In this document: piece by piece, positions 4,844-45,320 of the stretch
Layout of the letters: every line of letters begins with the position of its first letter
Numbering within the stretch: position 1 is the stretch's first letter
Assembly (NCBI GenBank): GCA_022821545.1
Contig: JAJEDJ010000030.1
Coordinates: 248,001 to 312,000 of the forward strand
DNA: 64,000 nt
Direction of reading: 5' to 3'
Origin: Caldilineaceae bacterium
GTDB lineage: Bacteria > Chloroflexota > Anaerolineae > Caldilineales > Caldilineaceae
The notes under the pieces: model-generated
What the model saw: only the letters and a program-made list of their open reading frames with translations
What the model was told of the DNA's origin: nothing
The model's database searches: none
Program-made: the position numbers and the translations under genes

Positions 4844-5815
4844 TTACACCTCCATGCGCGGATCGAATGCATCTCTCAAGCCATCTCCGACAAAGTTCAT
4901 CGCCAGAACCGCTACCGAAATCGCTATGCCCGGCGGCAGCCAAAGCCAAGGCGAGTTTGTCAAGACCGTCAATGATTGCGCCGAATTGAGCATACTCCCC
5001 CAGCTGGCCTGCGGTATCTGCACGCCCAAGCCCAGGAAGGAAAGCGCCGACTCGGTGAGAATCGTGCCGGCAACGCCCAATGTCGCCGCCACCAGGATAT
5101 AGGGCTGAAGATTCGGCAGAATGTGTCGGAAAATGATTCGCGAATGCGGCGTGCCAATACAGCGGGCCGCCTCCACGAACGCCTGTTCCCGCAGCGACAG
5201 CACCTGCGCCCGCAGCAGCCGCGCCAGACCTTCCCAACCCAACACTCCGATGACCACCATAACGTTTACGATGTTTGGCCCGAGCAGAGCAACCAGCATC
5301 AGGATCGCGAAGAAGGTCGGAAAGTTCATCACCAGCTCAGTGAAGCGCATCAGAATATTGTCGATCCGCCCCCCAACGTAACCTGACACGGTGCCAATCA
5401 GCACGCCGATTGAGATGGAGATCACATTGGCCACAAACCCTACCGACATCGAGATACGGGCGCCGTATACCATGCGCGCCCACATATCGCGCCCGGCAGA
5501 ATCGGTGCCCAGGATGTGGTCCGTGCTCGGCGGCTGCCGGATGCTGTCCAGGTCCACAGTGTAGGGATCCTGTATCGCGATAAAGGGCGCGAAAATTGCG
5601 GCGAATCCTAGAACTGCGATAATCACCAGACTGGCCACAGCCACTTTGTGCCGGCGAAAACGAACCGCCACCGTATTCGGGCTCTTGCGGTCTGACAGCT
5701 CCATAATCTCTGCGCTATTGTCAGGTAAAGGGGTTCCGGCCATGAGGTAGTGCGCACTTCGAGCAGGCAGGCGCGCAGTCTCCGGTTGGTCCGTGAAGGG
5801 AGAGGATGAGCTCAT
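4844..5815 (-). CDS. ABC transporter permease, OppC/DppC type
   Basis: 323 residues of the dipeptide/oligopeptide/nickel class inner-membrane permease. It has an OppC-type N-terminal segment (residues 35-60) before the first transmembrane helix, then LGTDSAGRDMWARMVYGARI, typical of OppC, and the cytoplasmic EAA loop FVEAARCIGTPHSRIIFRHILPN that contacts the ATPase. About six membrane segments. The ATG at 5815 lies in the centre of a perfect 36-bp palindrome, so the start may be occluded; an alternative ATG at 5743 (MAGTPLPD) has a poor ribosome site. It follows the binding-protein gene by 25 bases and precedes the glycosidase-like gene by two. Oligosaccharide import is as likely as peptide import given its neighbours. 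Confidence 0.93.
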   Translation of the reverse strand: MSSSSPFTDQPETARLPARSAHYLMAGTPLPDNSAEIMELSDRKSPNTVAVRFRRHKVAVASLVIIAVLGFAAIFAPFIAIQDPYTVDLDSIRQPPSTDHILGTDSAGRDMWARMVYGARISMSVGFVANVISISIGVLIGTVSGYVGGRIDNILMRFTELVMNFPTFFAILMLVALLGPNIVNVMVVIGVLGWEGLARLLRAQVLSLREQAFVEAARCIGTPHSRIIFRHILPNLQPYILVAATLGVAGTILTESALSFLGLGVQIPQASWGSMLNSAQSLTVLTNSPWLWLPPGIAISVAVLAMNFVGDGLRDAFDPRMEV

Positions 5816-5828
5816 CCTCTCCCTTCAC
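5793..5828 (-). promoter_or_regulatory. Perfect 36-bp palindrome over the permease start codon
   Basis: Two 18-base arms (GTGAAGGGAGAGGATGAG and its exact reverse complement) meet without a spacer. On the minus-strand mRNA it starts 12 bases after the stop of the binding-protein gene and takes in the GGGAGAGG ribosome site and ATG of the OppC-type permease. As RNA it would form a very stable hairpin that both protects the upstream message and hides the permease start. As DNA it could also be an operator. The function is inferred. Confidence 0.85.
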
Positions 5829-5840
5829 TCTCTTCAAATC

Positions 5841-7565
5841 CTATCCGTCGAAAGACCAGCCCTCCAGGTTTGTCCACCAGTCCCGTTTCGCGGGCAGCGG
5901 GTTGGACAGGTCAGCAAGACTCGATACAACACCCTGGTCGGTGATTTCCGGAATGTTCACACCTCCGTTGAACACCCAGACATTGTTGCCAACATACAAG
6001 GGCGCGTGCGACGGATTGTCGTTAAGGGTTCTCTGCAGATCGAAGTATATCTCCTGGCGAGCGGCCTGGTCGGTCAGCTGACCGGCTTCGATCACCTTCT
6101 CCTCAAAGTCTCCTCCAAGCGCCTCAGAGTAGCCGTTCGCATTTCGGCCCTGTGTCGTCAGGTGGAACTTGAGGAATCCGTCCGGGTCCGGGAACGATCC
6201 GAAGCCCACCCGAACCGCGTCGAAATCATGCGTGTCGTAGAATCGCTCCACCCAGACCGAGCTGTCCATCTCCTCGATCTTGATCTTGAAGCCGGCCTCC
6301 TCCAACATCTGCTTCTCTGCCGCGACCTGGGCGCGGGCCTCCTCGCTTCTCAGAGTGATCAGGTTGACCGTTACCTCCTGGTCAAAGTCCCAACCGGCCT
6401 CCTCCAGCAAGCCGCGCGCCAGATCGACGTCGTAGTCGTAAGGGTTGAGATCGTCAGGGATCGACCAGCCGTGGATCAGAGGCGAATTGTAGATCGTGCC
6501 GTTCCCGCCCTGGAAGACTTCAATGATCTTCTTTCTGTCCAGCGCATGCAGCCACGCCTGCCGCACCCGCTTGTCAGCAAAGAAACCGCGCCTCAGATTG
6601 AAGGAATAGGCTGTGAAGACCACGCCCGTTGTTGCGACCACCTTGAAATCGGCACTGTCGATGAAGGACTGCACGACCTCCGTCGAGCCTGTGTTGAGCC
6701 CGCCCCAGGCATTGAAATGGGCCTCCCCTCTTTCCAGCGCGATCTGACCGACGTCCGGCGAGGCTACAATCTGCATAATGTAGCTGCCCAGCTTTGGCGC
6801 GCCCCAGTGCCAGTCGTCGTTCGCCTCCAGGCGGATGAACTGATCGGCCTGGTACTCAACAAACTTGAACGGCCCCGAGCCGAGCGGATCTTCGAAGAAG
6901 AAAGACTGGTTCTCCAGCGCGTCCGGCGCCACATCGCCCAGTACGTGCTTGGGCAGAATCGAGTTGGTGGCCTGAAACAGGAATAGCCCCGTCGGGTAGG
7001 CGGTCGTAAACTGGACTGTTTTGTCGTCCATCGCGGTGATGCCGGCTACACTGTCGGCCTCGTCATTGGAGTAGGCCTCCGCCCCCTCGATCATCGCCAG
7101 ATTGCTGACCTGGCGCGACTTGGTCGCCGGGTTCAGATAGAGTTCGTAGGTATAGATTACGTCCTCGGCCGTGAAATCAGTCCCGTCGTGCCACTTGGCG
7201 TCCGGATGAATGTGGAAGGTGTACTGCGTTGCGTCGTCCGATACCTCCCAGCTTTCCGCCATGATTGGCACAAAGCCGGTCTTGGGAACGTTCTGCTGAA
7301 TCAACGGTGGCAGTACGCACTGAAAGAAGTGTGCCTGGAAACCTTGCACGGCAGTAAGCGGGTTGAAGCTGTTGATCGGTCCGCCGTAGAGGCCGATCAG
7401 ATTGCCCCTCTGCATCTCTTCGGCAGGCGCCTCATCCGCCACCGCCCCTGCGCCCGCATCCGATGCCACCGGCGCACAGGCCGCCAGCGCCGTCGCGCCC
7501 GCAGCCAGCGCGCTCGCCTTCAGAAACTCACGCCGGTTCACACCTCGTTCTCCGATACTTCGCAT
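5841..7565 (-). CDS. ABC transporter substrate-binding protein, family 5 (Tat lipoprotein)
   Basis: 574 residues of SBP family 5 (oligopeptide/nickel/oligosaccharide type). The ATG at 7565 has a CAGGAGGAG site 5 bases upstream and is preferred over an earlier in-frame ATG at 7598. The N-terminus has a twin-arginine signal (NRREFLKASALAAG) ending in a lipobox LAAC, so it is a membrane-anchored exported lipoprotein. Family features include MAESWEVSDDATQYTFHIHP, KWHDGTDFTAEDVIYTYE and VRQAWLHALDRKKI. It sits mid-operon after the DapA-like gene and before the OppC permease. Glycosidase-like genes at both ends of the operon favour a glycan-derived ligand, but the ligand cannot be read from sequence. 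Confidence 0.93.
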   Translation of the reverse strand: MRSIGERGVNRREFLKASALAAGATALAACAPVASDAGAGAVADEAPAEEMQRGNLIGLYGGPINSFNPLTAVQGFQAHFFQCVLPPLIQQNVPKTGFVPIMAESWEVSDDATQYTFHIHPDAKWHDGTDFTAEDVIYTYELYLNPATKSRQVSNLAMIEGAEAYSNDEADSVAGITAMDDKTVQFTTAYPTGLFLFQATNSILPKHVLGDVAPDALENQSFFFEDPLGSGPFKFVEYQADQFIRLEANDDWHWGAPKLGSYIMQIVASPDVGQIALERGEAHFNAWGGLNTGSTEVVQSFIDSADFKVVATTGVVFTAYSFNLRRGFFADKRVRQAWLHALDRKKIIEVFQGGNGTIYNSPLIHGWSIPDDLNPYDYDVDLARGLLEEAGWDFDQEVTVNLITLRSEEARAQVAAEKQMLEEAGFKIKIEEMDSSVWVERFYDTHDFDAVRVGFGSFPDPDGFLKFHLTTQGRNANGYSEALGGDFEEKVIEAGQLTDQAARQEIYFDLQRTLNDNPSHAPLYVGNNVWVFNGGVNIPEITDQGVVSSLADLSNPLPAKRDWWTNLEGWSFDG

Positions 7566-7691
7566 GGATCTCCTCCTGGAAAGTGAAAGAAACGTCACGG
7601 ATACCGATAAAGAGGCGGAGAAAAACTGTCAACGCGAAAACATTTGCCGGTCCCGCGCTGCCAATTCTCCTCCTGGTCGATTCGTCGCAGA

Positions 7692-11412: not shown

Positions 11413-12480
11413 TCAGTCAAAAACGAGCACCGATCGCGCAACCTTGCCCGCTTTCATGTCAGCAAACGCTTCGTTGATCTCATCAAGCGGGCGGTAGCGC
11501 GAAATCAGTTCGTCCAGCTTGATCCTGCCCTGCTTGTAAAGATCCAGAATCCACAAGAAATCGACGCGCGGCCGCGCCGCACCGTGGAAAGCCCCCATCA
11601 ACGTCCTGTCCTCCAGCAGGTGCCACCCCTCCACCGTAACATCCTGACCCGTCGGCTGCACGCCCACCACAACCGCCGTACCTGTCATCCGCACGGCATC
11701 GATGGCCTGTCTCACGATTGCAGGAAAGCCAACCACCTCAAAGGCATAGTCCGCGCCCCCGCCCGTAATTTCGATGATCCGCCGTACCGGGTCCTCCTTT
11801 GCGCTGTTGACAAAATGCGTCGCTCCCATCTGTTCCGCCAGCTCCAATTTGTAGTCCACCGTATCCACGGCGATAATCTTGCCTGCGGCGGCCAGCACAC
11901 CACCCTGGATCACGTTCAGCCCCACGCCTCCGCAGCCAAACACCGCCATCGACGCCCCCGTCTCCACCTGCGCCCGGTTCACTACCGCGCCGATCCCCGT
12001 GATCACTCCGCAGCTGATCAGGCACGCCTGCTCAAGCTGTGTGTCATCCGGCACCTTTACACACGCGTCGGCCAGGGCCAGAGTCTGCTCCACAAAGGTG
12101 GGCCGGACGTGATAAACCGGCTTTCCGTCCTGCTTGTACCGGCTCATCGCCTCCATCTTGTGGGTTTCACACAGCGCCGGCCGCCCGTTCGTACAGTTTC
12201 GGCAGCTTCCGCACATCGCATCCAGCGAGAGTATGATCTTGTCACCCGGCGCAAAGTCGCGAACGCCCTCGCCGACCGCCCGCACCACGCCGGCGCCCTC
12301 ATGCCCCAAAAGCCACGGCAGCCGCCGCGGCGTGCGGTGGTCAGTAACATAGTGGTAGTCGCTGTGGCATACGCCGGCCCCCACGATATCCAACAACACC
12401 TCCCCAAACTCCGGCTCCTCCAGCTCGACCTCCTTCACCGCCACCGGCGCGTGCGCCTCGTACATAATCGCAGCTTTCAT
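11413..12480 (-). CDS. Zinc-dependent alcohol dehydrogenase (class III-like MDR)
   Basis: 355 residues of the medium-chain dehydrogenase family, NAD(P)-dependent oxidation of an alcohol. Catalytic-zinc site: Cys in GAGVCHSDYH and His-Glu in LGHEGAGVV. Structural-zinc site: four Cys in CGSCRNCTNGRPALC. Rossmann motif GCGGVGLNVIQGG. The layout resembles class III/S-hydroxymethyl-thiol and aryl-alcohol dehydrogenases, so formaldehyde-adduct or alcohol oxidation is possible, but the substrate is not defined. It reads in the same direction as the downstream importer operon, from which it is separated by a 172-base gap with its own candidate promoter, so co-transcription is uncertain. Confidence 0.93.
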   Translation of the reverse strand: MKAAIMYEAHAPVAVKEVELEEPEFGEVLLDIVGAGVCHSDYHYVTDHRTPRRLPWLLGHEGAGVVRAVGEGVRDFAPGDKIILSLDAMCGSCRNCTNGRPALCETHKMEAMSRYKQDGKPVYHVRPTFVEQTLALADACVKVPDDTQLEQACLISCGVITGIGAVVNRAQVETGASMAVFGCGGVGLNVIQGGVLAAAGKIIAVDTVDYKLELAEQMGATHFVNSAKEDPVRRIIEITGGGADYAFEVVGFPAIVRQAIDAVRMTGTAVVVGVQPTGQDVTVEGWHLLEDRTLMGAFHGAARPRVDFLWILDLYKQGRIKLDELISRYRPLDEINEAFADMKAGKVARSVLVFD

Positions 12481-39166: not shown

Positions 39167-40573
39167 ATGAGTGTACAGGCGATTCCCAGGGACTACAGCC
39201 TCTCCGGCGGCCACAAGGACGCCGTTGAACTCGACGACGACCGCATTGTCGAGCGCATGGAGGAGACCTGGTGGAAGCCCAAGCTTTCTCGCCAGCAGAT
39301 GCGAGAGATCATGCAGCGGCGCAACGGGCCCGCCCTCCGGCACTACGGCCTTTGGTTTTTCCTGCTCGCCGTCAGCGCATACCTTGCCGTAGTTTCCTGG
39401 GGAACCTGGTGGGCGATTCCCGCATTTCTCGTCTACGGGACGATCTATTCCTCGTCCGACGCCAGCTGGCACGAATGCGGTCACGGCACGCCCTTCCGCA
39501 CGCACTGGCTCAACGAACTCTTGTATCACGTCAGCTCTTTCATGACCTTTCGCGAAGCCTACATGTGGCGTTGGAGCCATTCCCGTCACCATACTCACAC
39601 CTACATTGTCGGACGCGATCCCGAAATCCAGGTACAGCGCCCCGCCGACCTGCTCAAGATCGCGATGGATTTCTTCTATCTTCGCAGCGGGCCCCCCGAA
39701 GTCTGGCGGGTCGTGCGCAACGCCTTCGCCCGTCCCAACTCCGACGTACTCGACTTCATGCCGGAACGTGAACTGGCCAAAATGTACTGGTCATCCCGCA
39801 TTTACCTGGCCATCCTCGCGGCCTTCGCCCTCTGGTCAATCGCAATCAGCAGCTTCCTGCCCATGATGTTCGTGCTCCTGCCCCGCTTTTACGGCGGCTG
39901 GCTCCATCAGCTACTGGGCCTGACCCAGCACGCCGGCCTCGGCGAGGACACCTACGACCACCGCGAGAACACGCGCACCGTCTTCGTCAACCCGGTTTTC
40001 GCCTACTTATACATGAACATGCAGTATCACATTGAGCATCACTCCATGCCGATGACCCCCTTCCACGCCCTGCCCAAACTGCACGAGGCCGTAAGAGACC
40101 AGATGCCCCCGCCATACAAGGGCCTCTGGGCGTGCTACAAGGAGATGATCCCCGCCCTTATCAAGCAGGCAACCGGAGACCCCGGCTATCAGATCATGCG
40201 TCCCATCCCGCAGGACACGGAAACCGAAACCGTAGAATCGCATACCGCCGCCGAGTCCTCCGGCGAATGGGTTGAGGTCTGCCCGGTCGAAGACCTCGAT
40301 GAAGAAGATGTCATCCGCCTGGACCACGGCAGCCGCACGCTTGCCGTCTACCGCCTCAAGGGAGACAGATTCTACGCCACCGACGGCCTCTGCACCCACG
40401 AGTACGCCTATCTCGCCGACGGACTGGTCATCGAAGACGTCATCGAGTGCCCGCTTCATAACGGTCGCTTCGACATAACCACAGGCCGCGCCCTGCGCGC
40501 GCCCGCCTGCGACCATCTCGAAACCTATCCCGTAGAACGCCGCGGAAATACGCTCTTTGTTCGCGTCGCCTGA
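39167..40573 (+). CDS. Desaturase-like di-iron oxygenase fused to Rieske ferredoxin (MocD-MocE fusion)
   Basis: 468 residues. Residues about 60-330 are a fatty-acid-desaturase/alkane-hydroxylase-type membrane oxygenase with the three His boxes HECGH (near 102), HSRHH (near 137) and HIEHH (near 287) and hydrophobic segments between. After a Glu/Thr-rich linker, residues about 365-468 are a complete Rieske [2Fe-2S] domain with CTH (near 409) and CPLH (near 427), of the small bacterial ferredoxin type. In rhizopine catabolism the same two activities are separate proteins, MocD and MocE. The fusion supplies its own electron carrier; a ferredoxin reductase (MocF) is not in the window. AAAGGAGAA precedes the ATG. 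Likely role: oxidative O-demethylation or hydroxylation of an imported compound. Confidence 0.88.
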   Translation: MSVQAIPRDYSLSGGHKDAVELDDDRIVERMEETWWKPKLSRQQMREIMQRRNGPALRHYGLWFFLLAVSAYLAVVSWGTWWAIPAFLVYGTIYSSSDASWHECGHGTPFRTHWLNELLYHVSSFMTFREAYMWRWSHSRHHTHTYIVGRDPEIQVQRPADLLKIAMDFFYLRSGPPEVWRVVRNAFARPNSDVLDFMPERELAKMYWSSRIYLAILAAFALWSIAISSFLPMMFVLLPRFYGGWLHQLLGLTQHAGLGEDTYDHRENTRTVFVNPVFAYLYMNMQYHIEHHSMPMTPFHALPKLHEAVRDQMPPPYKGLWACYKEMIPALIKQATGDPGYQIMRPIPQDTETETVESHTAAESSGEWVEVCPVEDLDEEDVIRLDHGSRTLAVYRLKGDRFYATDGLCTHEYAYLADGLVIEDVIECPLHNGRFDITTGRALRAPACDHLETYPVERRGNTLFVRVA

Positions 40574-40629: not shown

Positions 40630-41790
40630 ATGAGCGTGCAAGCGATTCGCAGAGACTACAGCCTCTCCGGCGGCAACCGCGACGCCGTCAAACTCGACGG
40701 CGACCGCATCCTCGGCCGCGTTGAAGAGGAGTGGTGGAAGCCGAAGCTTTCCCGCCGCCAGATGCGCGACATCATGCAGCGCCGCGACGGACCCGGCCTC
40801 TGGCACTTCGGCCTCTGGTTCCTGCTGCTGGGCGTCAGCGCCTATCTGGCCGCAATCTCCTGGGGCACCTGGTGGGCCGTGCCCGCATTCCTCGTCTACG
40901 GCACCATTTACACATCCGCCGACTCCCGCTGGCACGAGAGCGGCCACGGCACGCCTTTCCGCACGCGCTGGCTGAACGAGGTCGTGTACGCCATTGCCTC
41001 CTTCATCGCCATTCGCGAAGCCTACCTGTGGCGCTGGAGCCACTCCCGCCACCATACGCATACCTACTTCGTGGGCCGCGACCCCGAAATCCAGGTCCAG
41101 CGTCCCGCCGACATTGTCAAGCTCCTCTTGGACTTCTTCTACCTGCGCAGCGGCCCGCCCGAAGTCTGGCGCCTCATCCGCAACGCCTGCGGCCGCCCCA
41201 ACGACGACGTGCGGGATTTCGTGCCAGAGCGGGACCTGCAAAAGATGTACTGGTCCAGCCGCGTCCACATCGCCATTTACTGCGCCTTCGCAATCTGGTC
41301 CATCCTCGTGGGCAGCATCCTGCCCATGATGTTCGTCCTCCTACCCCGCTTCTACGGCGGCTGGCTCCAACAGCTCCTGAGCCTCCCCCAGCACGCCGGC
41401 CTCGGAGAGGATACCTACGACCATCGCGAGAACACGCGCACCATCTACGTCAATCCCGTTTTCGCCTTCCTTTACGTCAACATGCAGTACCATCTCGAGC
41501 ATCACACCATGCCCATGACCCCCTTCCATGCTCTGCCCAAACTGCATGAGGCCGTCAAGGACCAGATGCCCCCTCCCTACAAGAGCCTGTGGGCGGCTTA
41601 CAAGGAGTTGATTCCCGCCCTCATCAAACAGGCCACCGGCGACCCCGACTACAGGGTTATCCGTCCGATACCCAAGGACCCCGAAGCCGAAGCCACTGAA
41701 ATTCAGTCCGCCGCCGAGACCTCCGGCGAATTGATCGAGGTCGGCCCGGTCGAAGACATCGAAGAAAAGGACGTCATCCGCCTCGGCTGA
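40630..41790 (+). CDS. Desaturase-like di-iron oxygenase, tandem paralog without Rieske domain
   Basis: 386 residues, highly similar to the preceding protein over its whole length from MSVQAIRRDYSLSGG onward, so a tandem duplicate. His boxes are kept: HESGH (Cys replaced by Ser), HSRHH, HLEHH. Similarity runs through the linker into the first strand of the Rieske domain (ELIEVGPVEDIEEKDVIRL) and then stops at a TGA, removing both [2Fe-2S] ligand motifs. No Rieske remnant is seen after the stop. It would need the ferredoxin domain of its neighbour or another ferredoxin. The two may act as a hetero-oligomer or on different substrates. Confidence 0.88.
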   Translation: MSVQAIRRDYSLSGGNRDAVKLDGDRILGRVEEEWWKPKLSRRQMRDIMQRRDGPGLWHFGLWFLLLGVSAYLAAISWGTWWAVPAFLVYGTIYTSADSRWHESGHGTPFRTRWLNEVVYAIASFIAIREAYLWRWSHSRHHTHTYFVGRDPEIQVQRPADIVKLLLDFFYLRSGPPEVWRLIRNACGRPNDDVRDFVPERDLQKMYWSSRVHIAIYCAFAIWSILVGSILPMMFVLLPRFYGGWLQQLLSLPQHAGLGEDTYDHRENTRTIYVNPVFAFLYVNMQYHLEHHTMPMTPFHALPKLHEAVKDQMPPPYKSLWAAYKELIPALIKQATGDPDYRVIRPIPKDPEAEATEIQSAAETSGELIEVGPVEDIEEKDVIRLG

Positions 41791-41872: not shown

Positions 41873-42829
41873 ATGCAGATCGCCTTTATCGGAGTCGGCG
41901 GGATCGCCCAAAATTACATCGGCAGCCTCGAAAAACTGGACCGGACCGTAGCCGCGGTATGTGACGTCAATGCCCAGACCGCCGCCCGCGTCGCCGACGA
42001 ACTCAACTGCAGCGGCTACACAGACCACCGCGAAATGCTGGCACGCGAAAACCTGGACGCGGTCTTCGTCGCCATTCCACCGGCCGCCCATGACACGCAG
42101 ACGATCGACGCCGCCGCCGCCGGCGCCCATGTCTTCGTCGCCAAGCCGGTCGCACTGGACCTCGACGTCGCCCGCCGTACGCAGGAGGCGATCGCCGCCA
42201 GCGGCCGCATCAATCAGGCCGGTTATATGGCCCGTTATTCCGACATCACCGAGCGCGCTAAAGAGCTTGTGCGGGGCCGCGACCTCGGCATGGGGATGGG
42301 CCGCTTCCTCACCCGCATGCCCCCCTCCCATCCCTGGTGGGGCAAGTTCGCGGTCAGCGCCGGCCAGCTCGTCGAGCAGAGCACGCACGTTTTCGACTGG
42401 CTGCGTTACTTCCTCGGCGAAGTCGAAACCGTCCACGCATTCGGCCACGACGGGCCCGATAACACGATCGCCGATTTCGAGGACAGCACCGTCGTCAATC
42501 TCAGATTCGCCAGCGGCGCCATCGGCAGCATCGTCAGCACCTGCTCCGCACGCGTCAAGGACGGCTTCATGACCGAACTCTGCGGCCGCGACCTCTACCT
42601 TCGCCTGGCGATGGACACCCACATCTCCGGCTACGTCGACCAGAAGGAGATCGACTACCACGGCCAGGAACGCGGATACTTCCGCCAGATCGAATGCTTC
42701 CTCGCCGCCGTCGAAGCCCAGGACCAGAGCCTCGTCCGCTCCTCCTACGCCGACGCCGTCAACTCCCTCGCCGTTACCCTGGCAGCAAACCGCTCCCTGG
42801 AAAGCGGCCAAGTCGAAACAGTGGATTGA
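41873..42829 (+). CDS. Gfo/Idh/MocA family oxidoreductase (MocA-like)
   Basis: 318 residues. The Rossmann fold is at the N-terminus (IAFIGVGGIAQNYIGSLEKL), the cofactor/catalytic loop reads HVFVAKPVALD (AKP for the usual EKP, keeping the Lys), and the C-terminal domain has STHVFDWLRYFLGEVE, with the Asp/His positions used in catalysis by inositol and sugar dehydrogenases. It oxidises a hydroxyl of a cyclitol or sugar with NAD(P). The next gene, a sugar isomerase-like protein, starts four bases after its stop, so the pair is co-translated; together they match the MocA/MocC pairing. Confidence 0.93.
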   Translation: MQIAFIGVGGIAQNYIGSLEKLDRTVAAVCDVNAQTAARVADELNCSGYTDHREMLARENLDAVFVAIPPAAHDTQTIDAAAAGAHVFVAKPVALDLDVARRTQEAIAASGRINQAGYMARYSDITERAKELVRGRDLGMGMGRFLTRMPPSHPWWGKFAVSAGQLVEQSTHVFDWLRYFLGEVETVHAFGHDGPDNTIADFEDSTVVNLRFASGAIGSIVSTCSARVKDGFMTELCGRDLYLRLAMDTHISGYVDQKEIDYHGQERGYFRQIECFLAAVEAQDQSLVRSSYADAVNSLAVTLAANRSLESGQVETVD

Positions 42830-42832
42830 CCA

Positions 42833-43663
42833 ATGAAATTCGGCACACTGCAGAACGTAATCGATCAGCCGCTTTCAACCGTGTTCGCCGTCGCATCGGA
42901 GCTCGGCTTTGAAGGCGTCGAAATCGACTGGTACGACGTCTCCGAGGCCCAGCCCGGCGGCGGTCCCCTCGCGCCGGAGAACCGGGCAACAGTCCGCCAG
43001 GCAGCGGCCCAGGCCGGCGTGGAGATTCCCTCGGTGGCCGCCCATTTCCTCAATCACGGAGGCCTCGCCGACGCCGAAAAAGAAGAATTCGGCCTCGAAG
43101 CCGTTCGCGCCGGCATTCGCCTTTGCACCGACCTCGGCGCGACCTATCTGCTCGTGCCCTTTTTCGGCTCGGCAATGATGACGGGGCAGCAGGCCGTCGC
43201 CCGCCTGGAAGCAAACCTGCGCCTGCTCGCGCCCGAAGCTGAGGCAGCCGGCGTCACTCTGGCAATTGAGCATACCCTGCGGGGGGACCACACCTCCGCC
43301 CTGCTCGACCGAGTCGACTCCTCCTTCATCGGAGACTACTGGGATATGGCCAACTGTATGGGGCTTGGCTACGACCCCATCGAAGAGATCGCCCAGCTTG
43401 GTCGGCACATCGTACGCGTCCATGCCAAGGAATATCACCGGGGCGATGCGCCCCCCGGCAGCCCGGAAGAGCCCCACTTCGACGGTCTCAACACGAAGCC
43501 CTTTGGCCAGGGCGACGTGCCCGTAGCGGCCGTTCTCTCCGCCCTGCAAAAGGCCGGTTATGACAGCTATGTCGTCCTCGAAACCGGCAGGTTCGACGAT
43601 GCCAAGCGCTCGGCAAAGGCAGCCCTCTCCCTGCTCCAGCAGCTGACAGGCCACGAACAATGA
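42833..43663 (+). CDS. Sugar phosphate isomerase/epimerase family TIM barrel (MocC/IolE-like)
   Basis: 276 residues of the xylose isomerase-like (AP endonuclease 2) barrel. Metal-binding residues can be placed in IEHTL (Glu), GDYWDMANC (Asp), VRVHAKEYHRG (His) and VVLETGRF (Glu). Homologs include MocC, inosose dehydratase IolE and hydroxypyruvate isomerase; the sequence alone does not choose between them. The ATG lies four bases after the Gfo/Idh stop, and its own stop overlaps the next ATG (ATGA), so three genes are tightly coupled. Likely acts on the keto product of the dehydrogenase. Confidence 0.91.
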   Translation: MKFGTLQNVIDQPLSTVFAVASELGFEGVEIDWYDVSEAQPGGGPLAPENRATVRQAAAQAGVEIPSVAAHFLNHGGLADAEKEEFGLEAVRAGIRLCTDLGATYLLVPFFGSAMMTGQQAVARLEANLRLLAPEAEAAGVTLAIEHTLRGDHTSALLDRVDSSFIGDYWDMANCMGLGYDPIEEIAQLGRHIVRVHAKEYHRGDAPPGSPEEPHFDGLNTKPFGQGDVPVAAVLSALQKAGYDSYVVLETGRFDDAKRSAKAALSLLQQLTGHEQ

Positions 43664-44475
43664 GCGCCAATCCCTACGCAATTTACCGTTTCGCAGGCAA
43701 AGCGGCCCTCGTCTCGGGAGGCGCCTCCGGAATCGGGCGCGCCACCGCGATACGCCTCGCAGCCGAAGGGGCGCATGTCTTCATCGCCGATCTGAACAAG
43801 GAGATGGCAGATCAAGCCGTAGCTGAGATCCGGGCGGCAGGAGGCAGCGCCGCGCGCGTAGACGTTGACCTGGCAGACGACGCTTCCGTCGAAGGCTGCG
43901 CGCGTGCAGTCGCAGAAGAGGTTTCCGCCCTCCACATTCTCGTCAACAACGCCGCCATCCTGCGCCAGGGCCGGATAGAGGATGGAGGCTGGATTGAAAA
44001 CTGGGAGATTGAGACCCGTATCGGTCTGCGGGGCTGGGTGATGATGACACAGCTGCTTCTGCCGCTCCTGAAGCGGGAGGGCGGGGCCATCGTCAACCTC
44101 TCATCCGAAGGGGGCTACCTCGGCCGCCCCGGTATGTGGGTCTACGACGCAATCAAAGCCGGCGTCGTTTCCACCACTAAGACAATGGCCCAGGAGTTCA
44201 CCAAATACGGCATTCGCGTCAACGCCGTCGCGCCCGGCTGGATCGTGACGGAAATGCACTTCGCCGGCGATCCCGATCCCGCCGCCCGCAAAAAAGAGCT
44301 GGAAGAAACGCCGATCAGTTCCTGCCTCATGCAACGGCGCGCCGCACCGGAGGAAGTGGCCGGCGCCATTGCCTTCCTGCTCAGCGACGACGCCTCCTAC
44401 ATCACCGGCACAACCCTCCACGTAGACGGCGGGCGCGTCGGCATGAATCTGGGACACCTCGGCATACTGGAGTAG
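43660..44475 (+). CDS. Short-chain dehydrogenase/reductase (classical SDR)
   Basis: 271 residues. Cofactor motif SGGASGIGRATAIRLA, NNAAIL, catalytic Ser in NLSSEGGYLG and Y-x-x-x-K as YDAIK. The acidic residue after the second strand (FIADLNKEM) suggests NAD preference. VDGGRVGMNLGHLG near the C-terminus fits the usual TGTTLHVDGG. It overlaps the upstream isomerase stop by ATGA. It probably oxidises or reduces a sugar or cyclitol intermediate in the same pathway. Confidence 0.94.
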   Translation: MSANPYAIYRFAGKAALVSGGASGIGRATAIRLAAEGAHVFIADLNKEMADQAVAEIRAAGGSAARVDVDLADDASVEGCARAVAEEVSALHILVNNAAILRQGRIEDGGWIENWEIETRIGLRGWVMMTQLLLPLLKREGGAIVNLSSEGGYLGRPGMWVYDAIKAGVVSTTKTMAQEFTKYGIRVNAVAPGWIVTEMHFAGDPDPAARKKELEETPISSCLMQRRAAPEEVAGAIAFLLSDDASYITGTTLHVDGGRVGMNLGHLGILE

Positions 44476-44531: not shown

Positions 44532-45320
44532 ATGACCAACACCGTCGATGGACAACTGTGGCATGACCAACCCCAACATGCCCTCGAAGCATATACACGC
44601 GACGGCTACCTGGCACTGTCCGGCTTTCTCACAGCAGCTGAGGTGGAAGAGACCAGGCAATCCGTGGCCCGCTTCATCAGCGAACGCGTCCCCCAACTCC
44701 CCCGCGAGCAGGTTTTTTACGAGACGCTCGGCCAGCCCGACACCCTCAAGCAGATCATAGGCCTGTTCAACCACGACACCTACTTCCACCGCCTCATGTT
44801 CGGCAGCCGCTTTGAAAAACTCGCCGAACTGCTCCTCCAGGGCCCTGTCGTCGGCAAAAACATGCAGTACTTCAACAAGCCGCCCACGATCGGCAAAGCC
44901 ACTCCGCCCCACCAGGACGGCTACTATTTCATGCTCGATCCCTGTGAAGCCCTCACAATGTGGCTCGCCCTCGAAGACGTGGACGAAGAAAACGGCTGCG
45001 TTCGCTACGTGCGCGGCTCACACCTGCTTCCGCTTCGGCCTCACGGACGCACGCAGACTCTCGGCTTCTCCCAGGGCGTCACCGACTACGGCACGCCCCA
45101 GGACCTGGCTGACGAAGTCGCCTTTCCCGCCCAGCCCGGCGACCTCCTCATCCACAACGCACTGACCATCCACCGCGCCGACGCAAACCGCAGCCCGACA
45201 CGCACCCGCCAGGCTCTAGGCTTCATCTACTACTCCGAACGGGCCAAAGTCGACGAAGCGGCCCACGCCGCCTACCAGAAACGCCTCGCCGCGGAAATGA
45301 AGGCCAAGGGCAAGATCTGA
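44532..45320 (+). CDS. Phytanoyl-CoA dioxygenase (PhyH) family protein
   Basis: 262 residues. Ligands H-Q-D in PPHQDGYYFML and the distal His in TIHRADANRSPTRTRQALGFIYY; RYVRGSHLLPLRPHG is the loop between. It differs from the other copies in the window in its short N-terminus and PHQDGYYF pattern, so it represents a separate subgroup. It is the last plus-strand gene of the oxidative island, 56 bases after the SDR, and is convergent with another PhyH gene. Confidence 0.92.
   Translation: MTNTVDGQLWHDQPQHALEAYTRDGYLALSGFLTAAEVEETRQSVARFISERVPQLPREQVFYETLGQPDTLKQIIGLFNHDTYFHRLMFGSRFEKLAELLLQGPVVGKNMQYFNKPPTIGKATPPHQDGYYFMLDPCEALTMWLALEDVDEENGCVRYVRGSHLLPLRPHGRTQTLGFSQGVTDYGTPQDLADEVAFPAQPGDLLIHNALTIHRADANRSPTRTRQALGFIYYSERAKVDEAAHAAYQKRLAAEMKAKGKI

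Follow-up and report, generated by a model that had tools for sequence, protein, structure and literature searches.

Gene organization and domain architecture

The window, a 64,000-nucleotide stretch of a Caldilineaceae contig, encodes a 468-residue fusion of a membrane di-iron oxygenase and a Rieske ferredoxin (copy 1) at positions 39167..40573 of the forward strand (ATG start codon, TGA stop codon). A tandem paralogue of 386 residues (copy 2), from which the Rieske domain has been deleted, follows at 40630..41790. Further downstream are genes for a Gfo/Idh/MocA dehydrogenase (41873..42829), a xylose-isomerase-like TIM barrel protein (AP_endonuc_2; 42833..43663), a short-chain dehydrogenase (SDR; 43660..44475) and a PhyH-type 2-oxoglutarate oxygenase (44532..45320), and all of these features lie on the forward strand. 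The best curated match of the Gfo/Idh/MocA dehydrogenase is the inositol 2-dehydrogenase IolG, at 133.9 bits and thus below the cut-off of 355. Most of these four genes 3' of the pair, namely those for the TIM barrel protein, the SDR and the PhyH oxygenase, are conserved neighbours across the genus. On the 5' side of the fused gene are two ABC-type permeases (recognized by reading the sequence) and a weak GH32-like protein.

Copy 1 begins with an FA_desaturase (membrane di-iron) domain (residues 80-320; 39404..40126, forward strand). This domain matches Pfam PF00487 with an E value of 9.9e-36 (124.2 bits, compared to a gathering score of 29.7) and contains three histidine boxes (HECGH, HSRHH and HIEHH), making the protein a member of the FA_desaturase superfamily; an additional conserved histidine is found in the motif QHAG. 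A linker that is poorly conserved in the alignment and modelled with low confidence (approximately residues 347-366; 40205..40264, forward strand) leads to a Rieske [2Fe-2S] domain (residues 367-455; 40265..40531, forward strand), which matches PF00355 with an E value of 7.7e-19 (67.8 bits, gathering score 20.3) and has its C-x-H and C-x2-H ligands in the arrangement CTH...CPLH. The di-iron boxes, the QHAG histidine and the Rieske ligands are all preserved among aligned relatives. The Rieske domain is nearest to the MocE family of ferredoxins (TIGR02377), with a score of 128.3 bits that is just below the curated whole-protein cut-off of 136.15. The MocE of Rhizobium etli scores 181 with this model, while a split Paraburkholderia protein (131.1) and a triple fusion described below (135.2) are also under the cut-off.

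An AF2 model of copy 1 has a mean pLDDT of 78.9, with values below 50 for linker residues 352-365. Residues 30-342 of the model match desaturase-like chains in PDB entries 8xks and 8xqw (Z 21-22, rmsd approximately 3.4 Å); our reading of these chains as fatty-acid desaturases is taken from the fold, the entry titles naming only a chloroplast motor complex. Residues 365-468 match the Rieske ferredoxins of carbazole, naphthalene and biphenyl dioxygenases (Z approximately 19, rmsd approximately 1 Å). An earlier note on this DNA had described one 468-residue chain at 39167-40573 with the three histidine boxes followed by a Rieske domain. The open reading frame, the Pfam matches and the motifs confirm this description of the fusion, but it was incomplete: the tandem paralogue at 40630-41790 had been overlooked.

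Distribution of the fused gene

A full-length fused gene is present in 17/17 genomes of the source's genus (82-100% identity), 13 of which also have the tandem second copy. It is also found in four genomes of a second Caldilineaceae genus (72-74%) and, as a longer version, in one further genus of this family. Beyond the Caldilineaceae, the fusion occurs as a single open frame in Anaerolineae MAGs, Colwellia, Pseudocolwellia, Marinomonas, Pontiella and other Kiritimatiellota. Its distribution across the phylum is patchy: among 400 evenly sampled genomes, only two others gave a strong match. A third fused paralogue, 513 residues long (L082, 4685-6226; L083, 4475-6016), is present in some genomes of the genus, where it adjoins an amidase (in L082) and a family-5 (peptide-type) solute-binding protein; this paralogue is absent from the source genome.

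Split homologues of both domains exist, as would be expected if a sequencing or assembly error had joined two genes. The chance of such an error is negligible, however, given that the same in-frame fusion is seen in every genome of the genus and in many independent assemblies, and we consider this explanation ruled out. The earlier note had named two observations that would count against the fusion, namely a sequencing error joining two genes and close homologues in which the domains are always separate. Neither held: the fusion recurs in independent assemblies and many homologues are fused, though split ones are common.

Fused and split arrangements

Separate, adjacent desaturase and Rieske genes are found in Burkholderia, Paraburkholderia, Caballeronia, an Oceanospirillaceae MAG and rhizobia. 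Identities to copy 1 are 54% and 56-57% for Burkholderia and Paraburkholderia, and the adjacent pairs of Rhizobium and Burkholderiaceae span 46-54%; the gene order in Paraburkholderia is desaturase, Rieske protein, Reductase_C reductase, at 54-57%. In Rhizobium etli CIAT 652, the annotated mocD and mocEa (adjacent, and 45.6% identical to copy 1 over its full length) precede mocFa and then a gene for a PanB-like protein, and a LacI regulator lies opposite. PanB-like genes (ketopantoate hydroxymethyltransferase family) lie directly 3' of rhizobial mocDEF-like genes at L077 (10694-11503) and L080 (10957-11757); the encoded protein possibly handles a one-carbon unit.

In a tree of fused and split proteins built on the di-iron domain, the fused proteins form three groups that are interleaved with split proteins: those of Caldilineaceae/Anaerolineae beside Burkholderiaceae (98/94), L084 and the triple fusions beside rhizobial MocD (100/99), and those of marine gammaproteobacteria and Kiritimatiellota. 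Placing all fused forms in one clade is rejected (AU p 8.2e-6), and the tree requires no fewer than three changes between the fused and split states. The tree fits either direction, so that three fusions cannot be told from one fusion and two splits. Because separate versions are also common (in Rhizobium and Burkholderiaceae), fused and split genes represent two interchangeable arrangements. The argument made in the earlier note, that fusion strongly supports functional pairing, is borne out by the occurrence of the same two families in both states.

Copy 2 and the loss of its Rieske domain

Copy 2 is 76% identical to copy 1 and stops at the start of the Rieske domain. Its di-iron domain is intact (HESGH / HSRHH / HLEHH), with active-site surroundings that have diverged from those of copy 1 (HESGH, LPQHAG). 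Exactly the Rieske domain has been lost: 246 bp (82 codons) are missing in frame, and the protein ends IRLG-stop. The deletion junction is the 9-mer TCCGCCTCG (41777..41785, forward strand), which is found twice, 246 bp apart (positions 1148 and 1394 of copy 2), in 8/11 relatives but only once in the window. The DNA 3' of the copy 2 stop codon matches the normal downstream sequence. In every other genome where the tandem copy is complete, copy 2 is full length (that of G003 runs off its contig), and among the genomes examined the 246-bp deletion occurs in the source genome only. This pattern is the signature of a slippage-type deletion between 9-bp direct repeats.

Copy 2 has either been recently crippled or is served in trans by copy 1. 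We consider it probable that copy 2, without its Rieske domain, is a functionless, degrading pseudogene or a strain variant: the deletion is confined to the source genome, and mutation by slippage between 9-bp repeats is commonplace. The di-iron ligands are nevertheless all intact, and dN/dS for the remaining part of copy 2 (0.06-0.11) is like that for pairs of intact second copies (0.05-0.14), although these values fit a functional protein or a recent loss alike and so do not tell the two apart. A mixed complex in which the Rieske domain of copy 1 supplies copy 2 with electrons seems unlikely.

Reductases and triple fusions

In two kinds of relatives, the oxygenase, the Rieske domain and an FAD/NAD reductase form a single chain: L025/L086 (768 residues; L086, 4507-6813), from a different genus of Caldilineaceae, and L085 (761 residues; 5284-7569), from a different family. 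The C-terminal part of L025 scores 331.5 compared to an NqrF cut-off of 295, and so exceeds the cut-off for that part. In Colwellia and Marinomonas, the two-domain fusion is directly preceded by a gene for an FAD/NAD/Fer2 reductase.

No MocF-type reductase adjoins copy 1 and no reductase is found in its operon. The source genome (98.9% complete) contains no MocF/BphA4-type reductase (Reductase_C), and a dedicated reductase was not found in searches with Reductase_C, NAD_binding_1, Pyr_redox_2 and MocF proteins. The sole NAD_binding_1 protein resembles a dihydroorotate dehydrogenase (DHODH) electron-transfer subunit, the Pyr_redox proteins comprise two that are thioredoxin-reductase-like and others that are general, and the best MocF match is 32% over part of a 500-residue protein. 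Since the genome yields no dedicated reductase, the term "self-sufficient", used in the earlier note, overstates copy 1. A self-sufficient oxygenase has its reductase domain in the same chain, as L025/L086 and L085 do and copy 1 does not; it is in these triple fusions, not in copy 1, that a single polypeptide spans every step from NADH to oxygen.

Gene neighbourhoods of the relatives

The loci of distant relatives include LacI regulators, ribose-type ABC transporter parts, an agarase and a sulfatase. The triple fusion of L085 adjoins a MeTHF:corrinoid methyltransferase, an MtaA/CmuA-like protein and an MTHFR, and the Marinomonas locus L067 includes an FdhF-family oxidoreductase and FdhD. Unrelated lineages repeatedly encode proteins of the URO-D/MtaA family close to their fused genes (L055, 6041-6838; L069, 2623-3744; L070, 3420-4832; L085, 1910-3001). 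As BLAST detected no similarity between the TIM-barrel neighbour of the window and those of the split loci, the two kinds of operon are not simply orthologous.

The window fusion has no formaldehyde-disposal gene next to it. A Zn-dependent alcohol dehydrogenase (Zn-ADH) gene is found 27 kb away (window positions 11413-12480); its product is class III/NDMA-dependent-like, with scores below the curated cut-offs. Marinomonas and Pseudocolwellia encode homologues of this Zn-ADH close to their fused genes. A candidate S-formylglutathione hydrolase beside the Pseudocolwellia gene was rejected, as this esterase scores 30.5 compared to a cut-off of 281.7; the Zn-ADHs are likewise below the class-III cut-offs, and a full glutathione-dependent formaldehyde route is without support at the Pseudocolwellia locus. 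Near the fused gene of a Colwellia MAG is a gene (L065, 7303-8037) for a metallo-beta-lactamase of subclass B1, which passes the general B1 cut-off and is probably unrelated to the fusion.

Comparison with known systems

The nearest studied system is rhizobial MocDEF. Rhizopine is an O-methyl inosamine from which the methyl group is removed, and MocDEF was reportedly modelled by Bahar in 1998 as a ferredoxin oxygenase complex that works together with the inositol pathway. MocD and MocE (with MocF) share both domain families, their order and all of the metal ligands with copy 1, which differs in encoding its MocD-like and MocE-like parts together in a single chain rather than in two genes and in having no adjacent MocF-type reductase. 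Cytochrome b5-desaturase fusions combine a desaturase fold with a built-in carrier, as copy 1 does, but their carrier is haem and their substrates are lipids. Rhizopine catabolism depends on mocDEF (PMC10107442, citing Bahar 1998).

The alkane monooxygenase of Fontimonas thermophila is a natural fusion of AlkB to the rubredoxin AlkG (PMC10113152). Like copy 1, it is a membrane di-iron monooxygenase naturally fused to a one-electron carrier, with the reductase separate, and the linker that is disordered in that report corresponds to one modelled with low confidence in copy 1. It differs in its carrier (rubredoxin, not Rieske), in its alkane substrate and in being a different membrane di-iron enzyme. 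A P450 system demethylates 6-O-methyl-D-galactose with a ferredoxin and a reductase (PMC10033563). The chemistry proposed for copy 1 is analogous, and a Zn-ADH is encoded nearby in marine relatives of copy 1, but the P450 is a haem enzyme unrelated to copy 1.

Proposed function

We propose, with a probability of about 0.55, that copy 1 is a MocDE-type monooxygenase with a tethered Rieske donor and that its favoured reaction is the O-demethylation of a methylated sugar or cyclitol. The protein would be a MocD-like membrane monooxygenase with a non-haem di-iron site, joined at its C-terminus through a flexible linker to a MocE-like Rieske ferredoxin. Electrons would pass from NAD(P)H through a separate reductase to the Rieske cluster and from there, one at a time, to the di-iron site, where O2 would be activated and a C-H bond hydroxylated. 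If the bond is in an O-methyl group of an imported sugar or cyclitol, the hydroxylated product would collapse to formaldehyde and the free alcohol, and the neighbouring dehydrogenase, isomerase and SDR could then pass the demethylated product into central metabolism. This reading is backed by the complete set of metal ligands, by the conservation of the fusion in the genus, by the full-length match to split mocD-mocE pairs and by the reductases that recur beside or within the proteins of relatives. Inositol uptake and catabolism are encoded by related sponge Chloroflexi (PMC6306507).

Oxidative O-demethylation is favoured because of the sugar/cyclitol neighbours and the one-carbon genes at the relatives' loci, with MocDEF as the nearest studied system; its odds against other hydroxylations are roughly even. 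A fused MocDE-type monooxygenase could instead hydroxylate another group, such as an N-methyl group, an amino acid or an amine, in the manner of the L-arginine hydroxylase GntB. The desaturase domain does match the GntB NCBIfam model weakly (23 bits), and neighbourhoods vary, as with the amidase and peptide-type solute-binding protein at the 513-residue paralogue. This score misses the GntB equivalog cut-off of 380 by far, however, and the window operon and several distant loci resemble sugar/cyclitol catabolism, leaving this alternative the less likely one. Still less probable is a lipid desaturase or hydroxylase that acts on fatty acyl chains or carotenoids and in which the Rieske domain replaces cytochrome b5 or a soluble ferredoxin. 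The Pfam FA_desaturase match, the desaturase-like fold and a weak DesB match (37.4 bits) are consistent with such an enzyme, but the DesA/DesB acyl-lipid equivalog cut-off of 500 bits is missed by far, no lipid gene is found among the scanned operon genes, the source genome holds separate, more distant desaturase paralogues (approximately 30%), and the closest annotated relatives are mocD. Several results count against the proposed function: the searches yielded no dedicated reductase in the genome or operon, a formaldehyde-disposal gene does not adjoin the fusion, the TIM-barrel neighbours show no similarity to those of the split loci, and the Rieske domain scores just below the MocE cut-off. 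Substrates may also differ among lineages, since the neighbourhoods differ.

Significance

No description of a desaturase-Rieske fusion was found in the accessible literature, although the architecture may already be on record in public domain databases. AlkB-AlkG (PMC10113152) is a known case of the same principle, and both component families of copy 1 are established; what is present in this sponge-associated bacterium is a repeatedly evolved fusion of the MocD/MocE pair known as separate genes. The repeated switching between split, fused and triple-fused forms indicates a genuine partnership between the di-iron membrane oxygenase and the Rieske ferredoxin. Fused genes offer single-gene constructs for assaying a rarely studied type of oxygenase, for which the Rieske-deleted copy 2 is a natural control; were the mixed complex real, the tandem pair would be a natural oxygenase pair sharing one tethered electron carrier. 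If the proposed O-demethylation is correct, these proteins would provide a non-P450, non-corrinoid route that opens methylated sugars and cyclitols, with relevance to the feeding of sponge symbionts and seaweed degraders.
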